From a virus: a stretch of 46,027 bases of DNA. The notes under the pieces were generated by a model, which was given only the letters and a program-made list of their open reading frames with translations, was not told where the DNA came from and made no database searches. Both the position numbers and the translations under genes were made by a program. Location of the stretch: positions 1-46,027 of IMG/VR virus record IMGVR_UViG_3300042541_000829, one strand, 5' to 3'. Positions 19,256-46,027 of the stretch are shown one piece after another (within the stretch, counting starts at the first letter, position 1; every line of letters starts with the position of its first letter).

Positions 19256-20872
<1,617 letters not shown>

Positions 20873-21166
20873 TTAGTTCTCCTCAATAACTGCATAAATT
20901 TCTTCTTCTGTTAAGACCAATACTTCTTCACCATTAATCTTAACAATCTGCCCAGCGTGTTTGCCAAATAACACTCGGTCGTTTTCTTTAACTGACATTG
21001 GTACAAGTGTGCCTGCTTCTGTGCGGCGGCCTAGGCCTACAGCTAGAACAACACCTTGGTCTGGCTTTTCTGCAGCATTGTCGGGGATAATAAGACCTGA
21101 GCTTGTTTTTGTATCGGCTTCGATACGTTTAACAACCACACGGTCGTGTAGAGGATTTAATTTCAT
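20873..21166 (-). CDS. groES: co-chaperonin GroES
   Basis: This 97-residue protein matches GroES along its length: [18 protein letters not shown] at the start, the mobile loop [17 protein letters not shown], and [21 protein letters not shown] near the end. GroES caps GroEL. It precedes groEL by three bases, the usual bacterial order, and AAAGGAG is an excellent ribosome site. Many phages carry only a GroES analogue (gp31, CocO) or only a GroEL, so a regular groES-groEL operon is less common. Confidence 0.97.
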
Positions 21167-23135: not shown

Positions 23136-23163
23136 AATATACTGCTAGAAATACCAGACAAAA

Positions 23164-23185
23164 GAAAGCACCCGAAGGTGCTTTC
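23164..23185 (-). terminator. terminator of the tmRNA transcript
   Basis: Minus strand GAAAGCACC-TTCG-GGTGCTTTC followed by TTTTG, directly after the tmRNA coding piece. Confidence 0.9.
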
Positions 23186-23230
23186 TACTAGTTTTGGTAA
23201 CAAGGTATAGCTACCCCGGACGAGCAGTTT

Positions 23231-23317
23231 TTAGGCTGCTACAGCTTCTGTACCACGAGCGAAGCGGAAGCCACGACCCATAGATACTTTAACTACGTCT
23301 TTTGTATTTGCGTTTGC
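23231..23317 (-). other. tmRNA tag reading frame (28 codons)
   Basis: Read from the likely resume codon GCA at 23317, the tag is ANANTKDVVK, then VSMGRGFRFARG, then TEAVAA. The AVAA end is a typical ClpXP degron. Tags are normally about 10-15 residues, so this one is unusually long and has a basic GRGFRFARG middle. The resume codon is inferred from the GCAAACG context and not proven. Confidence 0.7.
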
Positions 23318-23396
23318 ATTTACGATTTTTGTATTTTACGTGACCCCACGTGTTGCCCTTTATCCTATCTCACGCTGTCGAAACCTGGTCATCCCC

Positions 23397-23454
23397 GGCA
23401 TAAACATACTACGAGATTTTGGCTTCAATTGCCTGGTCGAGTTCAATATGTTTA
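23397..23454 (-). other. tmRNA intervening segment
   Basis: The 58 bases between encoded CCA and the 5' GGGG are flanked by TAAACATA (23454-23447) and TATGTTTA (23408-23401) and would be removed to give two RNA pieces. Confidence 0.8.
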
Positions 23455-23522
23455 TGGTGGAGATGGGCGGAATCGAACCGCCGTCCAACATGCCTTACTT
23501 TAAGAGTTATACAACAATTTCT

Positions 23523-23765
23523 TTAATCAGTTGCCTTTTCCATGTAAGGAAGTTTACCTAACATGTGTAAACGCAACGTCTGATGTTTTTTATCAACCAC
23601 TACTTCTTCTGTTACACTAGCACCTTCAAGAACTTCTTTCTCTTTAACAGGTGCCGCATACGAACGTTTAGCTAGTTGATGTTGATTAACAACATTGCTC
23701 GGTTCATCTGCCTGTGCTACTCCTACTGCTAAAAGTGCTACGAATACTAAACTACGTGCTAACAT
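23523..23765 (-). CDS. small secreted protein preceding tmRNA
   Basis: An 80-residue protein with a clear Sec signal peptide (MLARSLVFVALLAVGVAQA, cut before DEPS). The mature part is about 60 residues, Lys/Glu/Val-rich, with no cysteine and no known family. GAGGAGAAA is the ribosome site. The leader contains a long hairpin (CCTCTTCC... /GTGTATA with TATACAC near 23774-23808) that would pair with the GAGG of the ribosome site, so translation may be structure-controlled. It ends two bases before the acceptor piece of tmRNA, so both may share one transcript. The mature peptide probably works in the periplasm; its role is unknown. Confidence 0.7.
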   Translation of the reverse strand: MLARSLVFVALLAVGVAQADEPSNVVNQHQLAKRSYAAPVKEKEVLEGASVTEEVVVDKKHQTLRLHMLGKLPYMEKATD

Positions 23766-24558: not shown

Positions 24559-25701
24559 ATGGAATGTAAATTTTTATCTAACGGCATAGCCCTACAATAT
24601 CATGACTTTTTAAAGCCCTGCTGTACGTGGCGTAGCGACGATCAATGGCGTAGCAATCATACCGTACAAAAGGTCAGCATAGTTAACTGGCATCAACACC
24701 CAGATCTAGTACAGGCACGCCAGCAATTAGCTGATAATGTGTGGCCTAAGGGCTGTGAAGATTGCCGTGTAGTGGAAGAACAAGGGCGAGCAGACAGCAT
24801 ACGTTTAGGGGGTGCTAGCGCCTATGCTAATTACTCGCTAGATGATATAACCTTAGAAATCCGCCCGGGTAATGTATGTAATTTTGCCTGCCAAACCTGT
24901 TGGACACCTGCTAGTACTAGAGTAGCGGACTTTTACAAACGAGCAGGTCTAGCTGACCCATTTAAAGACTACGTTAAGAATACATCATCACCGTATGATT
25001 CACTACTAGCAGTTAAAGATAGACTGAAGAATATTATTGTACTTGGTGGTGAACCATTCTATGATCCAAGTTGCTTGGAGTTTTGGCAGTGGAGTTTAGC
25101 CAACACTCGAGCAGACCTGTCTGCGTTTACTAATGGGTCAGTCCTACGAACAGATCTACTAGCTAATACTGATCGTAAGTTTACCTTGATCTACAGTTTA
25201 GATGCTGTGGGCCATGCCGCCGAGTATATTAGATTTGGTACAATTTGGTCCGATGTCCAAAGTAACTTTGATCATGTGCGCAAAGAACTACCGCACGTTG
25301 AAGTTAGAGTAAACATAACTACATCAGTTTACAATTACTACTATCTATTAGATGTTGTTAGTCTATTGGCTCAAGATTGGCCTAAGGTTGTTTCGTTTGG
25401 TATTGCTGCCGAAGATATCTTTACAGAAGCTGTGATTCCCACAAGTCTACGACCCAAGCTAACTGCTAGACTAGCGGAATGTTTAACTGTGCTTGATTCG
25501 GCTAATATAGAATCAGATCAAAAATCCAATGCTGTTAATGCTGTTACAGCTATCATTAATAATCTTAATACTGTTAAATATAACAGAGAACTACACGAAA
25601 AATTTGTGGATTATGTTACAAAAATAGATCGCGCCAAGAACGCATATCTAGTTGACTATTGTCCAGAGGTGTCAGAGCTGTTAGATTTTCCAAGTAAGTA
25701 G
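24559..25701 (+). CDS. radical SAM protein (phage twitch-type)
   Basis: This 380-residue protein has the radical SAM cluster motif CNFACQTCW (Cys107, Cys111, Cys114) preceded by LEIRPGNV, and the GGEPF motif that contacts SAM near residue 155. The N-terminal 100 residues carry CCTW (Cys21-22) and CEDC (Cys66, Cys69), an auxiliary-cluster-like set seen in twitch/SPASM-type phage proteins. It generates a 5'-deoxyadenosyl radical, substrate unknown. No ribosome site is visible; CATAAGTATT before ATG may be a late-type variant. Its 3' end overlaps the convergent AsnS-like gene by 86 bases. It is not PqqE: the cluster order differs. An Fe-S supply from the ErpA-like carrier would suit it. Confidence 0.88.
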   Translation: MECKFLSNGIALQYHDFLKPCCTWRSDDQWRSNHTVQKVSIVNWHQHPDLVQARQQLADNVWPKGCEDCRVVEEQGRADSIRLGGASAYANYSLDDITLEIRPGNVCNFACQTCWTPASTRVADFYKRAGLADPFKDYVKNTSSPYDSLLAVKDRLKNIIVLGGEPFYDPSCLEFWQWSLANTRADLSAFTNGSVLRTDLLANTDRKFTLIYSLDAVGHAAEYIRFGTIWSDVQSNFDHVRKELPHVEVRVNITTSVYNYYYLLDVVSLLAQDWPKVVSFGIAAEDIFTEAVIPTSLRPKLTARLAECLTVLDSANIESDQKSNAVNAVTAIINNLNTVKYNRELHEKFVDYVTKIDRAKNAYLVDYCPEVSELLDFPSK

Positions 25702-26809
25702 TTGAATTCTTTTGCTCGGACAAATAACCCAATATATCTGGATTATTTTTAGCTATCAATTGTTTATGTAGTGCGCTGTCCATAATCTGTTTAATTAAAT
25801 CATTGGGCTGTAGTCTAGCTACTAATTTAAATATCTCGATATCTCGCAAAGGTGTCCAAGTAATAGTATTACCAAAATGCCAATGTTGCCAATCGTTAAC
25901 ATTATAATTAGCGCAGACTTTGATTGTATCTGCTAGTCCTACGTGAGTATATTCATCTTGCTGTTTATGCCAAGCATCTAGATACTTCTGTTGGTTGAAA
26001 TAGGTATAGTGTAGACAGTTGGTATTCTCTTCCAACAGTTTAGGAATACTAGTACCATAGTGTAATAACAGCATATTACTAGTAACGGGACTGCGTAGAG
26101 TAAATTCATCACCCGGCGCACCACTGGCCAGCACACATGGTTCATTCCAATGATGTATCTGATGATATCCCCAAAACTGTCCTATCTTTCCGTGATTCTT
26201 TAGATAGAAGTAATCATAGTCTACATGATTGTTTAGCACTAGTTTGTATTCTGCGTGTTTTTGGATATAGGAAAACAGCAGGGCAGTGTCCATGCCGCCA
26301 CTTAGATATACTCGTATAGGGTCTGACAACTGCGACAAGAATGTCTGTGCTTTGCGATCTAATATAAGATCAACTTGCTCTACTACTTGTTCTAAGGTCA
26401 ACGGACTAGTGTCGATTGAACCAATTGGATCAAAGTATTCACGGCTCAAAGACAGGTCCGGATTTAATCTAACTAGGCAATCAGTCCAAATTGTTTCGTC
26501 AAACTTGTGTAAATTCGAAAGCCCTAGTGTAGGACTATAAAACAAAGGAAAACTGCGTAAACGGTCACTGTGTATGCGTACACCGTCTTCTGTACAGTTG
26601 ATTACACAGAAGTTACCTGTGCGACTAGGTTCAAGTTCCTGGCATATATCGTCTATATGATCTAATAGTAGCCCGCTATCGAGATAACCTTTAAACCAAA
26701 CTCCATCAGCGTAACGAGTCCATCCGTTGTCCATACTAACAACAAAGTTGTCAACTTGAAAGTTGTGCGGAAAGTTATCCTGATGTGAGTGACTGACGTG
26801 AAAGAACAT
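25616..26809 (-). CDS. asparagine-synthetase-like ATP pyrophosphatase with degenerate amidotransferase domain
   Basis: A 397-residue protein resembling AsnB. The N-terminal 120 residues look like the Gln-amidotransferase fold (TEDGVRIHSDRLRSFPLFYS) but start MFFHV, without the catalytic Cys2, so glutamine hydrolysis is not expected. The second domain has the PP-loop YLSGGMDTALLF (residues 168-179) and SGAPGDEFTL, as in AMP-forming amide synthetases. Ammonia or another amine would have to be supplied. The gene ends inside the convergent radical SAM gene and begins one base into the clpP gene. Family members make Asn, beta-lactams, lasso peptides or tRNA modifications; the product here is unknown. 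Confidence 0.82.
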   Translation of the reverse strand: MFFHVSHSHQDNFPHNFQVDNFVVSMDNGWTRYADGVWFKGYLDSGLLLDHIDDICQELEPSRTGNFCVINCTEDGVRIHSDRLRSFPLFYSPTLGLSNLHKFDETIWTDCLVRLNPDLSLSREYFDPIGSIDTSPLTLEQVVEQVDLILDRKAQTFLSQLSDPIRVYLSGGMDTALLFSYIQKHAEYKLVLNNHVDYDYFYLKNHGKIGQFWGYHQIHHWNEPCVLASGAPGDEFTLRSPVTSNMLLLHYGTSIPKLLEENTNCLHYTYFNQQKYLDAWHKQQDEYTHVGLADTIKVCANYNVNDWQHWHFGNTITWTPLRDIEIFKLVARLQPNDLIKQIMDSALHKQLIAKNNPDILGYLSEQKNSTTYLENLTALTPLDNSQLDMRSWRDLFL

Positions 26810-27429
26810 TATCGTTTAGTAATCACTTCGTCTGCTAGACCGTAGGCCACTGCTTCTTCTGCTGATAAGAACGTGTCAAACTTCATAGTTTCGTATAGTT
26901 CTTCATAGGTTTTACCAGCAGTGTTGTGCTTGACATACAACTGTGTTAGGCGTTCATTTAAGCGTTTACTTTCTCCCATGCTACGTATAGCATCTTCGAA
27001 CTGTAGTTCCTGTACGTGTACGCTACCACGTGTACCCGGAGTACCTGAGCTAACACGGTGAATCATTGTGCGGCTTTCTGGCAGAACAAAACGCTTACCT
27101 GCTGTACCTGCTTGTGCTAAGAAACTGCCCATTGAACAGGCCTGTCCAATAACAATAGTACGAATATCAGGACGAATAAACTGCATGGTATCATAAATTG
27201 CTAGGCCAGCAGTAACACTACCACCCGGACTATTAATATAGAACATGATATCCTGCTCTGAATTTTCTGCTTCTAAGAACAGCATCTGTGCTACAACCAA
27301 ACTGGCTGTATGCTCGTTGACATCAGTATCTAACATAACAATACGATCTTTAAGTAAACGCGAATAAATGTCATAACTACGTTCACCTTGTGCGGTGCGT
27401 TCTACTACTATTGGTACTAAGGTTGACAT
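26809..27429 (-). CDS. clpP: ClpP protease subunit
   Basis: This 206-residue protein has the full ClpP order: N-terminal loop ([18 protein letters not shown]), [14 protein letters not shown] with Ser99, TMIHRVSSG with His124, and [19 protein letters not shown] with Asp185, so the catalytic triad is intact. It forms a barrel that degrades proteins fed by ClpX or ClpA. The start overlaps the next gene by one base. In this phage it is notable because a tmRNA with a ClpXP-type tag is also encoded (23186-23520). No ClpX appears in the window, so host ATPases are presumably used. Confidence 0.96.
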
Positions 27430-41582: not shown

Positions 41583-42370
41583 TCAACATCAATATCGCTG
41601 TGGCTTACTGTTACAGCGATTTTTTGTGCTTCTGGGAATCTAGTACGGGTATTCTTACTACCAAGTAACACAATTACACGCTGTCCTAATTCAGTATCAA
41701 TCAGCATAACCACACAACCACCGCTAGCACCAATATATCCTGTTTTACTAACTCGCACATCGTTGCTATTTCTAACCATTGGATTAGTGTTACCAAACTG
41801 CCACCAACGACGTTTAACTTTTATACTTACTTGAGGTTTACCACTGGCTTCAGTAATCTTTGTATATTCGTTTGCGGCCAGCACTAACTTACTTAGGTCA
41901 CGGGCATTACTGACATTGTTAGGATCTAATCCAGTTGGATCAGCAAACGTTGTACTTGACATACCTAGTACAAACGCAATGTGATTCATCTCAGCAATAC
42001 ATCGTGCCACACCGCCTGGATAATTTGCGCCTAACGTATATGCGGCAAAGTTATCACTCTTAACAATAGCAAGATCAATCAACTCACCACGAGTAAGTTG
42101 TTTAACACTACGAGGTAGTCGAGTATGATACTTGCCGACCAATCTACGATCAAGTGTGATCATTTCATCTAAGTTTTGATTAGCATTTAGTACAACCATT
42201 ACCGTCATTAGTTTAGTAATGCTAGCGATAGGTTGTACATGATCAGCATTCTTTTCTAATATAACTTCACCAGTAGTATCAGATACTAAAAATGATTTTG
42301 CTGTAATTGGTTTTGCTACCACTGCGGAGCAAAATAATAGCAGTAATATAAAACTACTTGCTCGTAGCAT
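41579..42370 (-). CDS. PBP7-type D,D-endopeptidase/carboxypeptidase (S11)
   Basis: From ATG at 42370 the product is 263 residues, with a signal peptide (MLRASSFILLLLFCSAVVAKP). Active-site motifs of the S11 penicillin-binding family: SITK (Ser50, Lys53), SDN (Ser105, Asn107) and KTG (Lys209). DPTGLDPNNVSNARDLSKL is typical. Such enzymes cut D-Ala crosslinks in periplasmic peptidoglycan. An upstream in-frame ATG at 42418 would remove the signal from the N-terminus and is less likely. It ends over the holin-like gene. In a phage this could modify the wall during infection or lysis. Confidence 0.88.
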   Translation of the reverse strand: MLRASSFILLLLFCSAVVAKPITAKSFLVSDTTGEVILEKNADHVQPIASITKLMTVMVVLNANQNLDEMITLDRRLVGKYHTRLPRSVKQLTRGELIDLAIVKSDNFAAYTLGANYPGGVARCIAEMNHIAFVLGMSSTTFADPTGLDPNNVSNARDLSKLVLAANEYTKITEASGKPQVSIKVKRRWWQFGNTNPMVRNSNDVRVSKTGYIGASGGCVVMLIDTELGQRVIVLLGSKNTRTRFPEAQKIAVTVSHSDIDVD

Positions 42371-44375
42371 GGTAAGTGCCGTCGAAATTTGCTGGTAATC
42401 CACCTTCCATACGTTCAATCATTAGTTCATAATAATGTTTAATTGTTACTTCGTCGTTGTTAACTAATTTCTTAGCCCACATGATAGCTTTCTTCCAATC
42501 ACCTCGAGTATATTCTTTACGATATTCTTCGTGCATGTGCGCGACAGTATGGCCCACAGTGTAGATGTCTAGGCCAATTGCTTTACCTTTAACAGCAATC
42601 TTGTCTAGCCACACCAGTTCAAAACGATCTTTAACTAATTCAGCAGTGTCTGGGCCTATGATCATTAACACACCATATGATTTAGTTTGACTTTCTAAAC
42701 GACTCGCTACACTAACAGGATCGCCCAATACATCGTAGCCCATCTTGCCTTCACTACCAATGTTACCTACTAGGATCTTGCCTGTATTAACTCCACAGCC
42801 CATACCTACATGTGGTTTGCCAATGCTGTCTAAATGTTCATTAAACTTGTCAACTGCTTCAATCATTTCTAATGCGGTCTTAACACCGTTGTAGGCATGA
42901 TCAATATCATCAATAGGAGCACCGTGAATATGTAATGACGCATCACCGATGAACTTAATCAGTGTACCATCGTTAGCAAACACAGGTTTACTGATAGCAG
43001 TCATATAGGCGTTCATGATAGCAGTGAAACCTTCTACATCCGCACCATACCGTTCGCCAAGGCCAGTGAAGTTACGCATGTCTGTCATAACCGCAGTAAG
43101 TTGTTTTTCCTCGCCACCTAAACGAATTAGGCTTGGATCTTTTTGTAAGCGTTCAACAATCACAGGACTTACATAGCTACCAAATTGTTTCTTGATCTGT
43201 TGTTTCTGTAAGAACTCACTAATAAACTTAACACCATAAGCGTGTAGCATAACCAGTACACCACCAGCTGTTGGCACAATAGCATCAAACAAGAAGTTGT
43301 AATGCGCAAACGCATACATTGTTAGCGGAGTAATACCAGCAAGTAACACAATACCTACACCTAAGCCAACATATACCCAACGGCTTAAGATTAAGATGAT
43401 AAGTGAGATAGCAATAAGAGCTAATAGTTCAGCACCTGGTGCCCAATCGGGACGTTCAATGTTTACGTTGTTGGCTAGTGTGCCGATGACAGCGGCCTGC
43501 ATATCTTGTGGCCAAATGCTACCAATTGATGTTGGTACTGGGTTAGCTAGACCTGCGGCACTTAATCCTACAATAACTACAGCACCACCAAAGTCTTTAG
43601 GTAAGTTGACTGCTGATACTTGTTGTGATTTTTGACTCCAATCTACCCAGATTCGTCCTTGACTGTCTGTAGCTATAGGACGGAAACTAGGAATACGCAT
43701 CTTCTCAACGCCATTCTCATTTAGCTTAACTTGGAATGTTGAATCTTGTGAAATAACACGCAGTACTTCTAAAGGAATACTTGGATATACTTCATTATTG
43801 TACCCAACAAATAAAGGTAGTCTACGATTAACACCGTCTACTTCCGGAAACGTATTAGCAATACCAACGCCTGCGGCGTTCTTTTCTAAACTTGGAATGT
43901 TAGCAATGATTCCCGGGTATTGAATAATAGTGTTGCTGTATTCTGCTCCAATAACAGCACTACCTGGCTTACGTGGAATATTCTTGCTAGCCTGACTAGG
44001 CATGTTAGTTAAGATAACTGGATGGTCTTCTAACTCTAATGCTAAGGCCGCATCGCCACCTTGACGATCTGCTTCTGGCATCATGACAGTCCAAACAACT
44101 AGACCAGCATTGCGACTATATAGGTCACCAATAATATTAGCGTACTTGTCACGCTTAAATGGCCATTGCCCGTACTTGTCTAATGTTGCTTCATCTATGT
44201 TTACAGTATAGATATTATTTTCTGTAGGAGCCTTACTGGAAATGAGTGTATCAAAGTATCTGAGCCTTACTGACTCTACAAACGTAGGTCCTTGTAAAGT
44301 AACAGCTACAATAATAGCAAGAGTAATTACCGCAGTCCATGGTGATACTAATATTTTCTTAAGTTTATTTTTCAT
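42354..44375 (-). CDS. CHASE2-transmembrane class III nucleotide cyclase
   Basis: A 673-residue protein. Residues 12-30 form a membrane helix. A CHASE2 sensor occupies about residues 38-308 (YTVNIDEATLDKYGQWPFKRD and PTSIGSIWPQDMQAAVIG are typical). Three membrane helices span about 315-380, and the class III catalytic domain covers about 420-610. Metal-binding Asp432 (TDMRNFT) and Asp478 (IGDAS), adenine-selecting Lys474 and Asp548, and Arg559 are present, but the transition-state Asn of the VNxAxR motif is Ser555 (GDPVSVASRL). Activity may be reduced or altered. It would make cAMP (possibly cGMP) at the inner membrane in answer to a periplasmic signal. It overlaps the peptidase gene by 17 bases. 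A late motif is seven bases before ATG with no ribosome site. Confidence 0.9.
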   Translation of the reverse strand: MKNKLKKILVSPWTAVITLAIIVAVTLQGPTFVESVRLRYFDTLISSKAPTENNIYTVNIDEATLDKYGQWPFKRDKYANIIGDLYSRNAGLVVWTVMMPEADRQGGDAALALELEDHPVILTNMPSQASKNIPRKPGSAVIGAEYSNTIIQYPGIIANIPSLEKNAAGVGIANTFPEVDGVNRRLPLFVGYNNEVYPSIPLEVLRVISQDSTFQVKLNENGVEKMRIPSFRPIATDSQGRIWVDWSQKSQQVSAVNLPKDFGGAVVIVGLSAAGLANPVPTSIGSIWPQDMQAAVIGTLANNVNIERPDWAPGAELLALIAISLIILILSRWVYVGLGVGIVLLAGITPLTMYAFAHYNFLFDAIVPTAGGVLVMLHAYGVKFISEFLQKQQIKKQFGSYVSPVIVERLQKDPSLIRLGGEEKQLTAVMTDMRNFTGLGERYGADVEGFTAIMNAYMTAISKPVFANDGTLIKFIGDASLHIHGAPIDDIDHAYNGVKTALEMIEAVDKFNEHLDSIGKPHVGMGCGVNTGKILVGNIGSEGKMGYDVLGDPVSVASRLESQTKSYGVLMIIGPDTAELVKDRFELVWLDKIAVKGKAIGLDIYTVGHTVAHMHEEYRKEYTRGDWKKAIMWAKKLVNNDEVTIKHYYELMIERMEGGLPANFDGTYHATSK

Positions 44376-44382
44376 AGTAAAA

Positions 44383-44389
44383 TATTTAT
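44383..44389 (-). promoter_or_regulatory. T4-like late promoter motif ATAAATA
   Basis: GATAAATATT lies seven bases before the cyclase ATG and over the end of rpoZ; a transcript from here would be almost leaderless. Confidence 0.4.
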
Positions 44390-44637
44390 CTACCCTGACG
44401 TACCTTACCTAAGTACTCACGACCAACTTTACCTTCTTCTACTTCCTGTAAGGCTGCGCTTACAGTACGATTACGATATTTTAACTTAGGGTCTGCTTGT
44501 TGAGCAATACGTCTAGTAGATTCAATTTCTCTAGCACGAGTAGCGGCAATAAGAATCATTTCAAATTGATTACCACCTATGTTTTTTAATGCTAAATCTG
44601 CGTCAATTTCTCGTCCTAATTTGTCAATATGGCTCAT
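44386..44637 (-). CDS. rpoZ: RNA polymerase omega subunit homologue
   Basis: An 83-residue protein from ATG at 44637 (AAGGAA, eight bases before). It matches bacterial omega: IGGNQFEMILIAATRAREI corresponds to the IGNRFDLVLVAARRARQ helix, and NRTVSAALQEVEEGKVG to the KTVIALREIEEG segment. Omega binds the RNAP beta-prime subunit and helps assembly. An in-frame ATG at 44697 lies in the promoter and is excluded. The early promoter at 44669-44697 suggests early expression, when a phage omega could replace the host's or mark RNAP for phage use. Confidence 0.88.
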   Translation of the reverse strand: MSHIDKLGREIDADLALKNIGGNQFEMILIAATRAREIESTRRIAQQADPKLKYRNRTVSAALQEVEEGKVGREYLGKVRQGR

Positions 44638-44776: not shown

Positions 44777-45073
44777 ATGAAAACTATTTTAGCAGTATTA
44801 TTATTAGGTAGTTGTATCACAGCAAATGCTAATCAAGCATTGGCACAGAAAAGTGGCTGTTTAGCTTGTCACGCAGTTGATCATAAGATCTTAGGTCCAG
44901 CGTATCGAGACGTTGCTGCCAAATATAAAGGTCAAGATGTTGAGGCTAAACTAGTAGCAAAGGTCAAAGCAGGTGGTAGTGGAGTATGGGGTCCTATTCC
45001 AATGCCGCCAATGAGTCCACAGATCAAAGACGAGGATATTAAAACGCTGGTTAAATGGGTGTTGACGCAGTAA
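44777..45073 (+). CDS. c551-like cytochrome c
   Basis: A 98-residue protein with a Sec signal (MKTILAVLLLGSCITANANQA). The heme-binding CLACH (Cys28, Cys31, His32) is followed by LGPAYRDVAAKYKG and GVWGPIPMPPMSP, where Met76 is the axial ligand, and WVLTQ closes the fold. This is the c8/c551-552 family of small periplasmic electron carriers of proteobacteria, about 80 mature residues. It carries electrons from periplasmic donors to terminal oxidases or nitrite reductase. AAAGGG is the ribosome site; TTAAATAC at 44738 may be a weak late motif. It faces the pqqA-like gene across a shared terminator. Confidence 0.95.
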   Translation: MKTILAVLLLGSCITANANQALAQKSGCLACHAVDHKILGPAYRDVAAKYKGQDVEAKLVAKVKAGGSGVWGPIPMPPMSPQIKDEDIKTLVKWVLTQ

Positions 45074-45075
45074 TA

Positions 45076-45103
45076 AAAAAGCCCCAATTGCTTAGGGCTT
45101 TTT
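45076..45103. terminator. terminator shared by cytochrome and pqqA-like genes
   Basis: AAAAAGCCC-CAATTGCTTA-GGGCTTTTT works in both directions between the convergent genes. Confidence 0.85.
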
Positions 45104-45158
45104 CTTTTCATTTTGAACTTTATGAGTTCAGATTGAAATCAATGTATAACGAATAAGA

Positions 45159-45230
45159 CTACTTATTCATCACGTACATAGTGATTTCAAACCCAAAGCG
45201 CATTTCAGTTGCTGATGGTGTTGTCCACAT
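45159..45230 (-). CDS. pqqA: PQQ precursor peptide PqqA
   Basis: A 23-residue frame from ATG at 45230, with AGGAG nine bases upstream. The peptide starts MWTTPSATEMRFGFEITMY and ends VMNK. It matches PqqA in length and in every conserved position: the MWT-P start, a T-x-x-R-x-GFE core, and the E-x-x-x-Y pair (Glu15, Tyr19) that PqqE crosslinks to build pyrroloquinoline quinone, the cofactor of periplasmic methanol, glucose and alcohol dehydrogenases. No other pqq gene is in the window, so host PqqBCDE would process it. Transcription could come from 45795 through the gene at 45446. The frame is too short to judge codon bias, so recognition rests on the conserved pattern. Confidence 0.85.
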   Translation of the reverse strand: MWTTPSATEMRFGFEITMYVMNK

Positions 45231-45445
45231 AATGTATAACTCCTGTATTTGTAAATTACGTTAATAATCACAAATCAGATCATTGGAGATATCGATCATT
45301 TGATAAAGGTCCAACTTGAGATTGCTAAGTACCGCAACAAGTTCACATTACTGTTTGCTTGTTACTAGTACTTATACATATAGTAACACCGTTTTGACCT
45401 AAATAACATACGTAAAATCATTAAAGACTAGTAATTTTTTTGTAA
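45231..45445 (-). other. 215-base leader region of the pqqA-like gene
   Basis: No convincing gene. It holds an imperfect hairpin (AACTTG...TTGC...GCAA...CAAGTT near 45310-45340), paired GATCATT repeats near 45275 and 45294, and an ACAAATAC motif at 45245-45252 that resembles the late promoter core. It could be a structured leader or a small RNA. Confidence 0.35.
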
Positions 45446-45766
45446 TTAACGTTTAAACTTCTCGTTAAATTCTTCCATGTGTGTACGAGGTAAGTTACGT
45501 ACTGCCGCCATAATAATAGCCGCATCTCTACTGTCAAAATTAGGATGCTTAATGTTCCAATCTCGTTTGCTTTCGGCACGTTCTAAACAAATACGTAAAT
45601 CTGCTTTAGTTTCAAAATCTTTTTCTACTAGAATAAGTGCGTTCATATCTATAATGTCTAAACAATATTCTACATATTTCTTAGTGCTGTTAATACTGTT
45701 ATAGTTAGTAGCACCACCTTTAAACACAGGCTTAATGCTTTTATATTTTTTTACAAAGTAGTTCAT
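45446..45766 (-). CDS. small phage protein of unknown function
   Basis: A 106-residue basic protein from ATG at 45766 (AAGGAG upstream), starting MNYFVKKYKSIKPVFKGGAT. It has a helical middle (YVEYCLDIIDMNALILVEKD) and a basic end (RTHMEEFNEKFKR). An in-frame ATG at 45823 is excluded because it lies in the -35 box. No motif recognised. It is the first gene after a perfect early promoter and may share a transcript with pqqA. Confidence 0.72.
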   Translation of the reverse strand: MNYFVKKYKSIKPVFKGGATNYNSINSTKKYVEYCLDIIDMNALILVEKDFETKADLRICLERAESKRDWNIKHPNFDSRDAAIIMAAVRNLPRTHMEEFNEKFKR

Positions 45767-45794
45767 AGTCTGCTCCTTGTATAAAAGAACAGCC

Positions 45795-45823
45795 ATTATA
45801 CTATCTTTTGGGTCAAATGTCAA
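45795..45823 (-). promoter_or_regulatory. sigma-70 early promoter (perfect consensus)
   Basis: TTGACA at 45823-45818, 17-base spacer, TATAAT at 45800-45795. Confidence 0.85.
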
Positions 45824-45850
45824 TTGATTAATCTATATTGTATAATCGTA

Positions 45851-45876
45851 AAAAAGCCCACCGAAGTGGGCTTTTT
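45851..45876 (-). terminator. rho-independent terminator with UUCG loop
   Basis: Minus strand AAAAAGCCCAC-TTCG-GTGGGCTTTTT, 14 bases after the partial CDS at the window end. Confidence 0.9.
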
Positions 45877-45889
45877 ATTCAACTACAGA

Positions 45890-46027
45890 TTAAAGACTGA
45901 ATACAGTTAAAGCACCGCCACCAGGAGCAGCATTGTATTTTGTTAATTCAGCATAACCACCAGCAGCACCTAAAGCGTCTGTTGGGTTAGTCATACCAAG
46001 GTTCATCGCCACACCAGCCCAGCCACC
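45890..46027 (-). CDS. C-terminal part of a probable virion protein
   Basis: The open frame enters from the window edge and gives 45 residues ending in TAA at 45890. It is Gly/Ala-rich (WAGVAMNLGMTNPTDALG, then AAPGGGALTVFSL). The composition and a strong terminator suit an abundant virion or structural protein, but the fragment is too short to name it. Confidence 0.6.
   Translation of the reverse strand, partial: GGWAGVAMNLGMTNPTDALGAAGGYAELTKYNAAPGGGALTVFSL

Follow-up and report, generated by a model that had tools for sequence, protein, structure and literature searches.

The locus considered here raises the question of why a virus would carry a gene of only 23 codons for PqqA, the peptide precursor of the cofactor PQQ, and how such a peptide would be used. 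The window, i.e., the whole stretch of DNA analysed, is an IMG/VR virus record of 46,027 bases whose tail-fibre, virion, endolysin, DNA ligase and GroEL proteins match PHROG phage families. A nucleotide search of phage records with its last 11 kb gave no match.

The first-pass annotation, made from the letters alone, had placed at 45159-45230 a small open reading frame with a ribosome site and had read its product as a PqqA with all conserved features, including the Glu-x3-Tyr pair. The coordinates are right, whereas the strand has to be corrected, as the gene is encoded by the minus strand; on the plus strand, this interval has an internal stop. The frame (45159..45230, minus strand) comprises 23 codons and a TAG stop, and a Shine-Dalgarno sequence AGGAG read from the sequence (45240..45244, minus strand) is separated from the ATG by a 9-nt spacer. 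The 23-aa peptide, MWTTPSATEMRFGFEITMYVMNK, matches the Pfam PqqA profile (PF08042) over positions 1-19/19 with an E-value of 1.7e-10 and 41 bits, for a curated cut-off of 21.1 bits, and the NCBIfam equivalog TIGR02107 with an E-value of 8e-10 and 38.3 bits, for a cut-off of 20 bits. Profile support for PqqA, named beforehand as a check, is thus provided by both curated models, and the pair of residues crosslinked in PqqA is present as Glu15-x3-Tyr19. In the 46-kb record, the match has a genome-level E-value of 8.3e-11, and the same search in 14 control genomes returned zero matches; the match is far above chance level. A PDB search with the peptide gave no match. Judged from its sequence, the ORF is a genuine, full pqqA gene.

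A phage-borne pqqA is not new, although the first-pass annotation named no precedent. Indeed, a study published in 2020 describes a methylophage of Lake Baikal that encodes both PqqA and methanol dehydrogenase (VP_266, PMC7678222), and virus-encoded pqqA is also listed in a reservoir study of 2026 (PMC13188868). Like the window, the Baikal populations VP_139 and VP_266 are predicted Methylophilaceae viruses with methanol dehydrogenase. That study (PMC7678222) places PqqA in one population only, VP_266, mentions neither a cytochrome nor an operator in its accessible part, and assigns radical-SAM proteins to PQQ biosynthesis, whereas the one in the window is a twitch-domain protein and not PqqE. 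What the present analysis adds is the dehydrogenase and cytochrome context, the recurrence of the gene in isolates and in IMG/VR, its purifying selection, its host-type dyad and the copy-number pattern of the hosts.

The surroundings of pqqA point to methanol oxidation. The last 138 bases of the window (45890..46027, minus strand) hold the 3' end of a gene for methanol dehydrogenase, an enzyme of which PQQ is the cofactor; as the gene runs off the contig, only its last 45 codons and the stop are seen. The 45-residue C-terminus is identical to that of P0003, a 621-aa XoxF-type enzyme of the related viral contig G019, which scores 613.5 bits against TIGR03075 (cut-off 480) and has XoxF 6oc5 as its best PDB match. 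In XoxF, the second Asp of an Asp-x-Asp motif, two residues past the catalytic Asp, is a lanthanide ligand, and this motif is present in P0003 (DEWDYDGINE aligned with DEWDFDGINE of 6oc5). P0003 is 84-92% identical to the best host enzymes in most Methylophilaceae genomes searched. A GC-rich hairpin with A/T tails, AAAAAAGCCCACCGAAGTGGGCTTTTT (45850..45876), read from the sequence and absent from the scanner's list, is likely an intrinsic terminator serving the dehydrogenase gene. pqqA is flanked on its other side by a convergent gene (44777..45073, plus strand) for a monohaem cytochrome c of the c551 type, 98 aa long and secreted (CLACH, MPPM), and a further hairpin with A/T tails between the two (45075..45104, also read from the sequence) is likely a terminator common to both. 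The best host homologue of this cytochrome is 61-74% identical in seven of 12 genomes, and lower or absent in the rest. In the hosts G001 and G002, it starts 31-54 bp behind an xoxF-like gene (908610 after 906712-908556; C5:124813 after 122928-124781).

As the dehydrogenase end, pqqA and the c551-type cytochrome occur together, the window holds parts of a PQQ-dependent methanol-oxidation module, and the cluster looks like such a module devoid of PQQ-maturation enzymes. The pqqBCDE genes, whose presence near the phage pqqA had been put forward as a point to check, were not found: no PqqE above cut-off was detected in the 50 viral records searched, and the radical-SAM protein of the window (24559-25701, plus strand), tried as a PqqE, was rejected as it has no PqqE match at E<=0.001, its best NCBIfam match being the twitch-domain radical SAM family NF033640 (186.4 bits, cut-off 170). 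In hosts, pqqA copies are also scattered, and adjoining pqqBCDE genes are common without being required. Two related contigs display other arrangements. On G019 (L278, 8184-12903), genes for PstS (phosphate-binding), a porin-like protein, a phosphoesterase and AhpC stand between the dehydrogenase and cytochrome genes. On the phage contig G050 (L279, 3990-12790), pqqA accompanies genes for an XoxF-type dehydrogenase, the alpha subunit of a formate dehydrogenase (884.8 bits for a cut-off of 666) and a SoxYZ-like carrier of the quinoprotein-associated kind, which together form a predicted longer methanol-to-formate oxidation set.

With pqqA less than 900 bp from the contig end and beside a host-like dehydrogenase, this end might be a host fragment or an assembly chimera, in which case pqqA would not be on a phage at all. 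That explanation is extremely improbable and already refuted for the phage group, as the pqqA and cytochrome neighbourhood recurs on the viral contigs G019, G021, G028, G029 and G030, G019 carries virion and replication genes, and complete isolate genomes carry pqqA. The gene is not fixed among the relatives of the window phage: among 12 viral loci with a cytochrome at least 86% identical, pqqA is found in five, and the other seven have another gene context without it.

The isolates extend this distribution well beyond the window. Besides two mislabelled Acinetobacter contigs (see below), a PqqA tblastn search of 50,697 phage records retrieved only the Methylophilales phages P19250A, Venkman, MEP301, MEP401, MEP402 and Melnitz (four strains) and a podovirus from spring water. 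The gene is thus carried by all six named methylophage isolates checked and annotated as pqqA in none. This annotation gap takes two forms: the site bears no annotated feature in the records of five isolates (P19250A, Venkman, MEP301, MEP401 and MEP402), and it is overlain by an antisense hypothetical ORF in the sixth, Melnitz (L002 4961-5056), as in the Manatee Spring podovirus (L004 2067-2195), both antisense ORFs being probably spurious. All six isolates share with the window a pqqA ORF with an SD-like sequence, but their genomes, Melnitz excepted, are smaller than that of the window phage, and neither a methanol dehydrogenase nor a c551-type cytochrome of the window kind was found in any of them. 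Term searches of the publications describing Venkman, MEP301, Melnitz and MEP401/402 gave no mention of pqqA, the Melnitz paper citing PQQ solely as a medium supplement. 'Acinetobacter phage MD-2021a', considered as a non-methylophage carrier, was rejected because its contig shows the bacterial order ppk-pqqA-pqqB-pqqC; the two records of that name (L314) look like mislabelled bacterial chromosome contigs (ppk, pqqABC, gcd).

A degenerate sequence scan also locates pqqA on at least 120 IMG/VR contigs, some of which may be host fragments, unlike the isolates. Among the matches listed, each reads as a full-length PqqA and nearly all have an SD-like sequence. Glu15 and Tyr19 occur in all phage copies listed, the IMG/VR search pattern itself requiring both. 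Twelve pqqA-bearing viral records also display a capsid or terminase match over the cut-off.

On the host side, the genome matches listed for the strict PqqA pattern are Methylophilaceae, methylotrophic betaproteobacteria that are abundant methanol consumers of the coastal sea and lakes, or unclassified MAGs consistent with Methylophilaceae. The 18 host genomes considered carry 1-12 pqqA each (at least two in 17 of them) and at most one pqqC; being chosen for their match to the PqqA pattern, and in part draft genomes or MAGs, they do not give a random sample of counts. Published figures are 3-12 pqqA copies for single copies of most other pqq genes (PMC4109929). Many pqqA with at most one pqqC fit precursor dosage as a limiting step. 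The initial proposal that precursor supply matters in a PQQ-dependent host is strengthened by these multiple copies, together with the methanol dehydrogenase and cytochrome genes adjoining the phage pqqA.

Among phage copies not picked by DNA pattern, pN/pS is 0.142 in the window lineage (six sequences), 0.166 in six reference phages and 0.165 for all twelve sequences, with a pS of 0.49-0.57 across these sets. Phage pqqA is under purifying selection, and the frame, whose recurrence in related phages had been set in advance as a test, is both recurrent and constrained. This bears on the idea that pqqA is a passenger, i.e., a host fragment captured recently and devoid of any selected role in the phage, an idea to which the shortness of PqqA, the multicopy state in hosts and the near identity of phage and host peptides lend some weight. 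A pN/pS of 0.14-0.17 with pS near 0.5 indicates, however, that the copies are old and constrained. Moreover, the SD-like sequences and an upstream dyad (see below) are kept while the flanks are not conserved and the spacing differs, and unrelated phage lineages all carry the gene. A passenger is therefore already disfavoured and quite improbable. With its location in a phage genome, its host homologue and its maintenance by selection, pqqA has these three attributes of an auxiliary metabolic gene.

Selection could also maintain a decoy, the peptide occupying PqqD or PqqE so as to lower host PQQ synthesis and shut down host methanol metabolism. Phages do encode short inhibitors, and no phage PqqE was found. 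Such a role is nevertheless highly improbable, as Glu15, Tyr19 and the whole substrate motif, which a decoy would be free to lose, are kept, and as methanol dehydrogenase and cytochrome genes, which call for more PQQ, not less, occur in the same phage group.

The upstream regions suggest how a phage copy serving as a true precursor gene may be controlled. In 119 host pqqA upstreams, expectation-maximisation identified the dyad nTMATGAnnTTMMTTAGn, 18 bp long and located some 125 nt ahead of the start (log-likelihood of 840 versus 61 when shuffled), and 114 phage upstream regions run alone gave a nearly identical motif (664 versus 60). With the host-trained matrix, a score of at least 8 is reached by 69% of the 114 phage pqqA upstreams versus 3.9% of 1,119 other phage genes (p=6e-56), and in five of seven reference phages a dyad site scoring 11.9 or more lies within 65-109 nt. 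Dyad sites also precede host pqqB. The bacterial pqqA of Methylophilaceae and the phage gene share peptide family, length and upstream dyad, but the distance from dyad start to -10 is mostly 61 nt in hosts and 37-39 nt (about 38) in phages, and no pqqB-E genes are seen beside the phage copies. Because of this different spacing, and of the low information of the columns flanking it, the phage dyad is not simply a copied block.

In the window, the putative pqqA operator is the 18-bp dyad TTAATGATTTTACGTATG (45407..45424, minus strand), 176 nt upstream of the start codon. At 13.1 bits, it is the top-scoring site of the 46-kb window and is weaker than many host sites; a site as strong occurs somewhere in 36% of simulated 46-kb sequences, but about 0.001 are expected in 300 nt. 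A putative -10-like TACTAT (45380..45385, minus strand; four of six consensus bases) lies 39 nt downstream of the dyad start, the usual phage spacing. No dyad site was detected upstream of the G019 phage dehydrogenase. A possible structured RNA leader (TTGGAC...TCCAA) upstream of pqqA was not supported, being present in few sequences only. The dyad that phage pqqA has in common with host pqqA and pqqB suggests that the PQQ-regulon activator of the host also acts on the phage gene; no published regulator for this dyad was found in the literature, and the dyad provides a way to approach an apparently uncharacterised PQQ regulator. Farther upstream on the minus strand, an ORF at 45446..45769 (ATG start, longer frame possible) encodes a 107-aa protein of unassigned function with no family match and two viral relatives, and is preceded by a sigma-70 promoter, TTGACA-17-TATAAT (45795..45823, minus strand; 12/12 consensus).

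Taken from sequence comparison, the reading that we hold with good confidence is that the auxiliary pqqA of this large Methylophilaceae phage would feed the host PqqB-E pathway and would thereby sustain methanol oxidation in infection. Phage PqqA would feed host PqqD/E, PqqB and PqqC during infection, the host enzymes crosslinking Glu15 to Tyr19 and processing the peptide to PQQ. As one PqqA is consumed per PQQ, extra precursor could raise the cofactor pool. This PQQ would load XoxF methanol dehydrogenase, both host-encoded and phage-encoded from the nearby gene, and the electrons of XoxF would be accepted by the c551-type cytochrome whose gene flanks pqqA on the opposite side, with phage pqqA responding to the host activator via the common dyad. 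The data directly show the identity and recurrence of the gene, its purifying selection, the common dyad, the module context and the lack of PqqE in the phage records searched; in this scheme, we infer the expression of pqqA, the conversion of its product to PQQ, the identity of the activator and the benefit to the phage.

The extra PQQ might instead serve another PQQ enzyme, or an antioxidant role, in the infected cell. Hosts have further PQQ-enzyme homologues, AhpC is encoded near the cytochrome in a relative, and a dehydrogenase is missing from most of the pqqA phage records searched; the closeness of XoxF and the c551-type cytochrome to pqqA, in the window and in a relative, makes this use very unlikely compared with methanol oxidation. 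More broadly, we lean, with some reserve, towards the view that pqqA under a host-type PQQ-regulon operator is near-universal in Methylophilaceae phages of several unrelated lineages, that it has been almost wholly missed because of its 23 codons, and that precursor dosage is the common bottleneck relieved, some phages adding XoxF and a cytochrome acceptor.

That unrelated phages infecting the same host group have a cofactor-precursor gene in common points to one particular step as limiting in infected cells, an idea testable in existing phage-host cultures (Venkman with H5P1, Melnitz with H5P1). Cyanophage photosynthesis genes of the psbA type also supplement host central energy metabolism; they supply a turnover-prone enzyme subunit, whereas phage pqqA supplies a cofactor precursor peptide.

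The window includes several further genes. A tmRNA gene (23140-23561, minus strand) matches the permuted-tmRNA model RF04321 with 120.5 bits and the betaproteobacterial tmRNA model RF01850 with 104 bits, the only matches of the Rfam search, which is consistent with a methylophage; Melnitz reportedly encodes a two-piece tmRNA. A phage-encoded rpoZ, for the RNA polymerase omega subunit, is found at 44389-44637 (minus strand; 27.1 for a cut-off of 23.6). Next to the cytochrome and conserved in relatives, the gene at 42357-44375 (minus strand) encodes a CHASE2 sensor fused to an adenylate/guanylate cyclase domain, a phage-encoded cyclic-nucleotide signal being unusual. At 24559-26809, the twitch-domain radical-SAM protein (plus strand) overlaps an opposite-strand protein with an asparagine-synthase-like SGGMD motif, and both could possibly form a candidate peptide-modifying pair. 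Finally, a GroEL-like protein, a small GroES-like protein and ClpP are phage-encoded at 19256-21166 and 26809-27429 (both minus strand).
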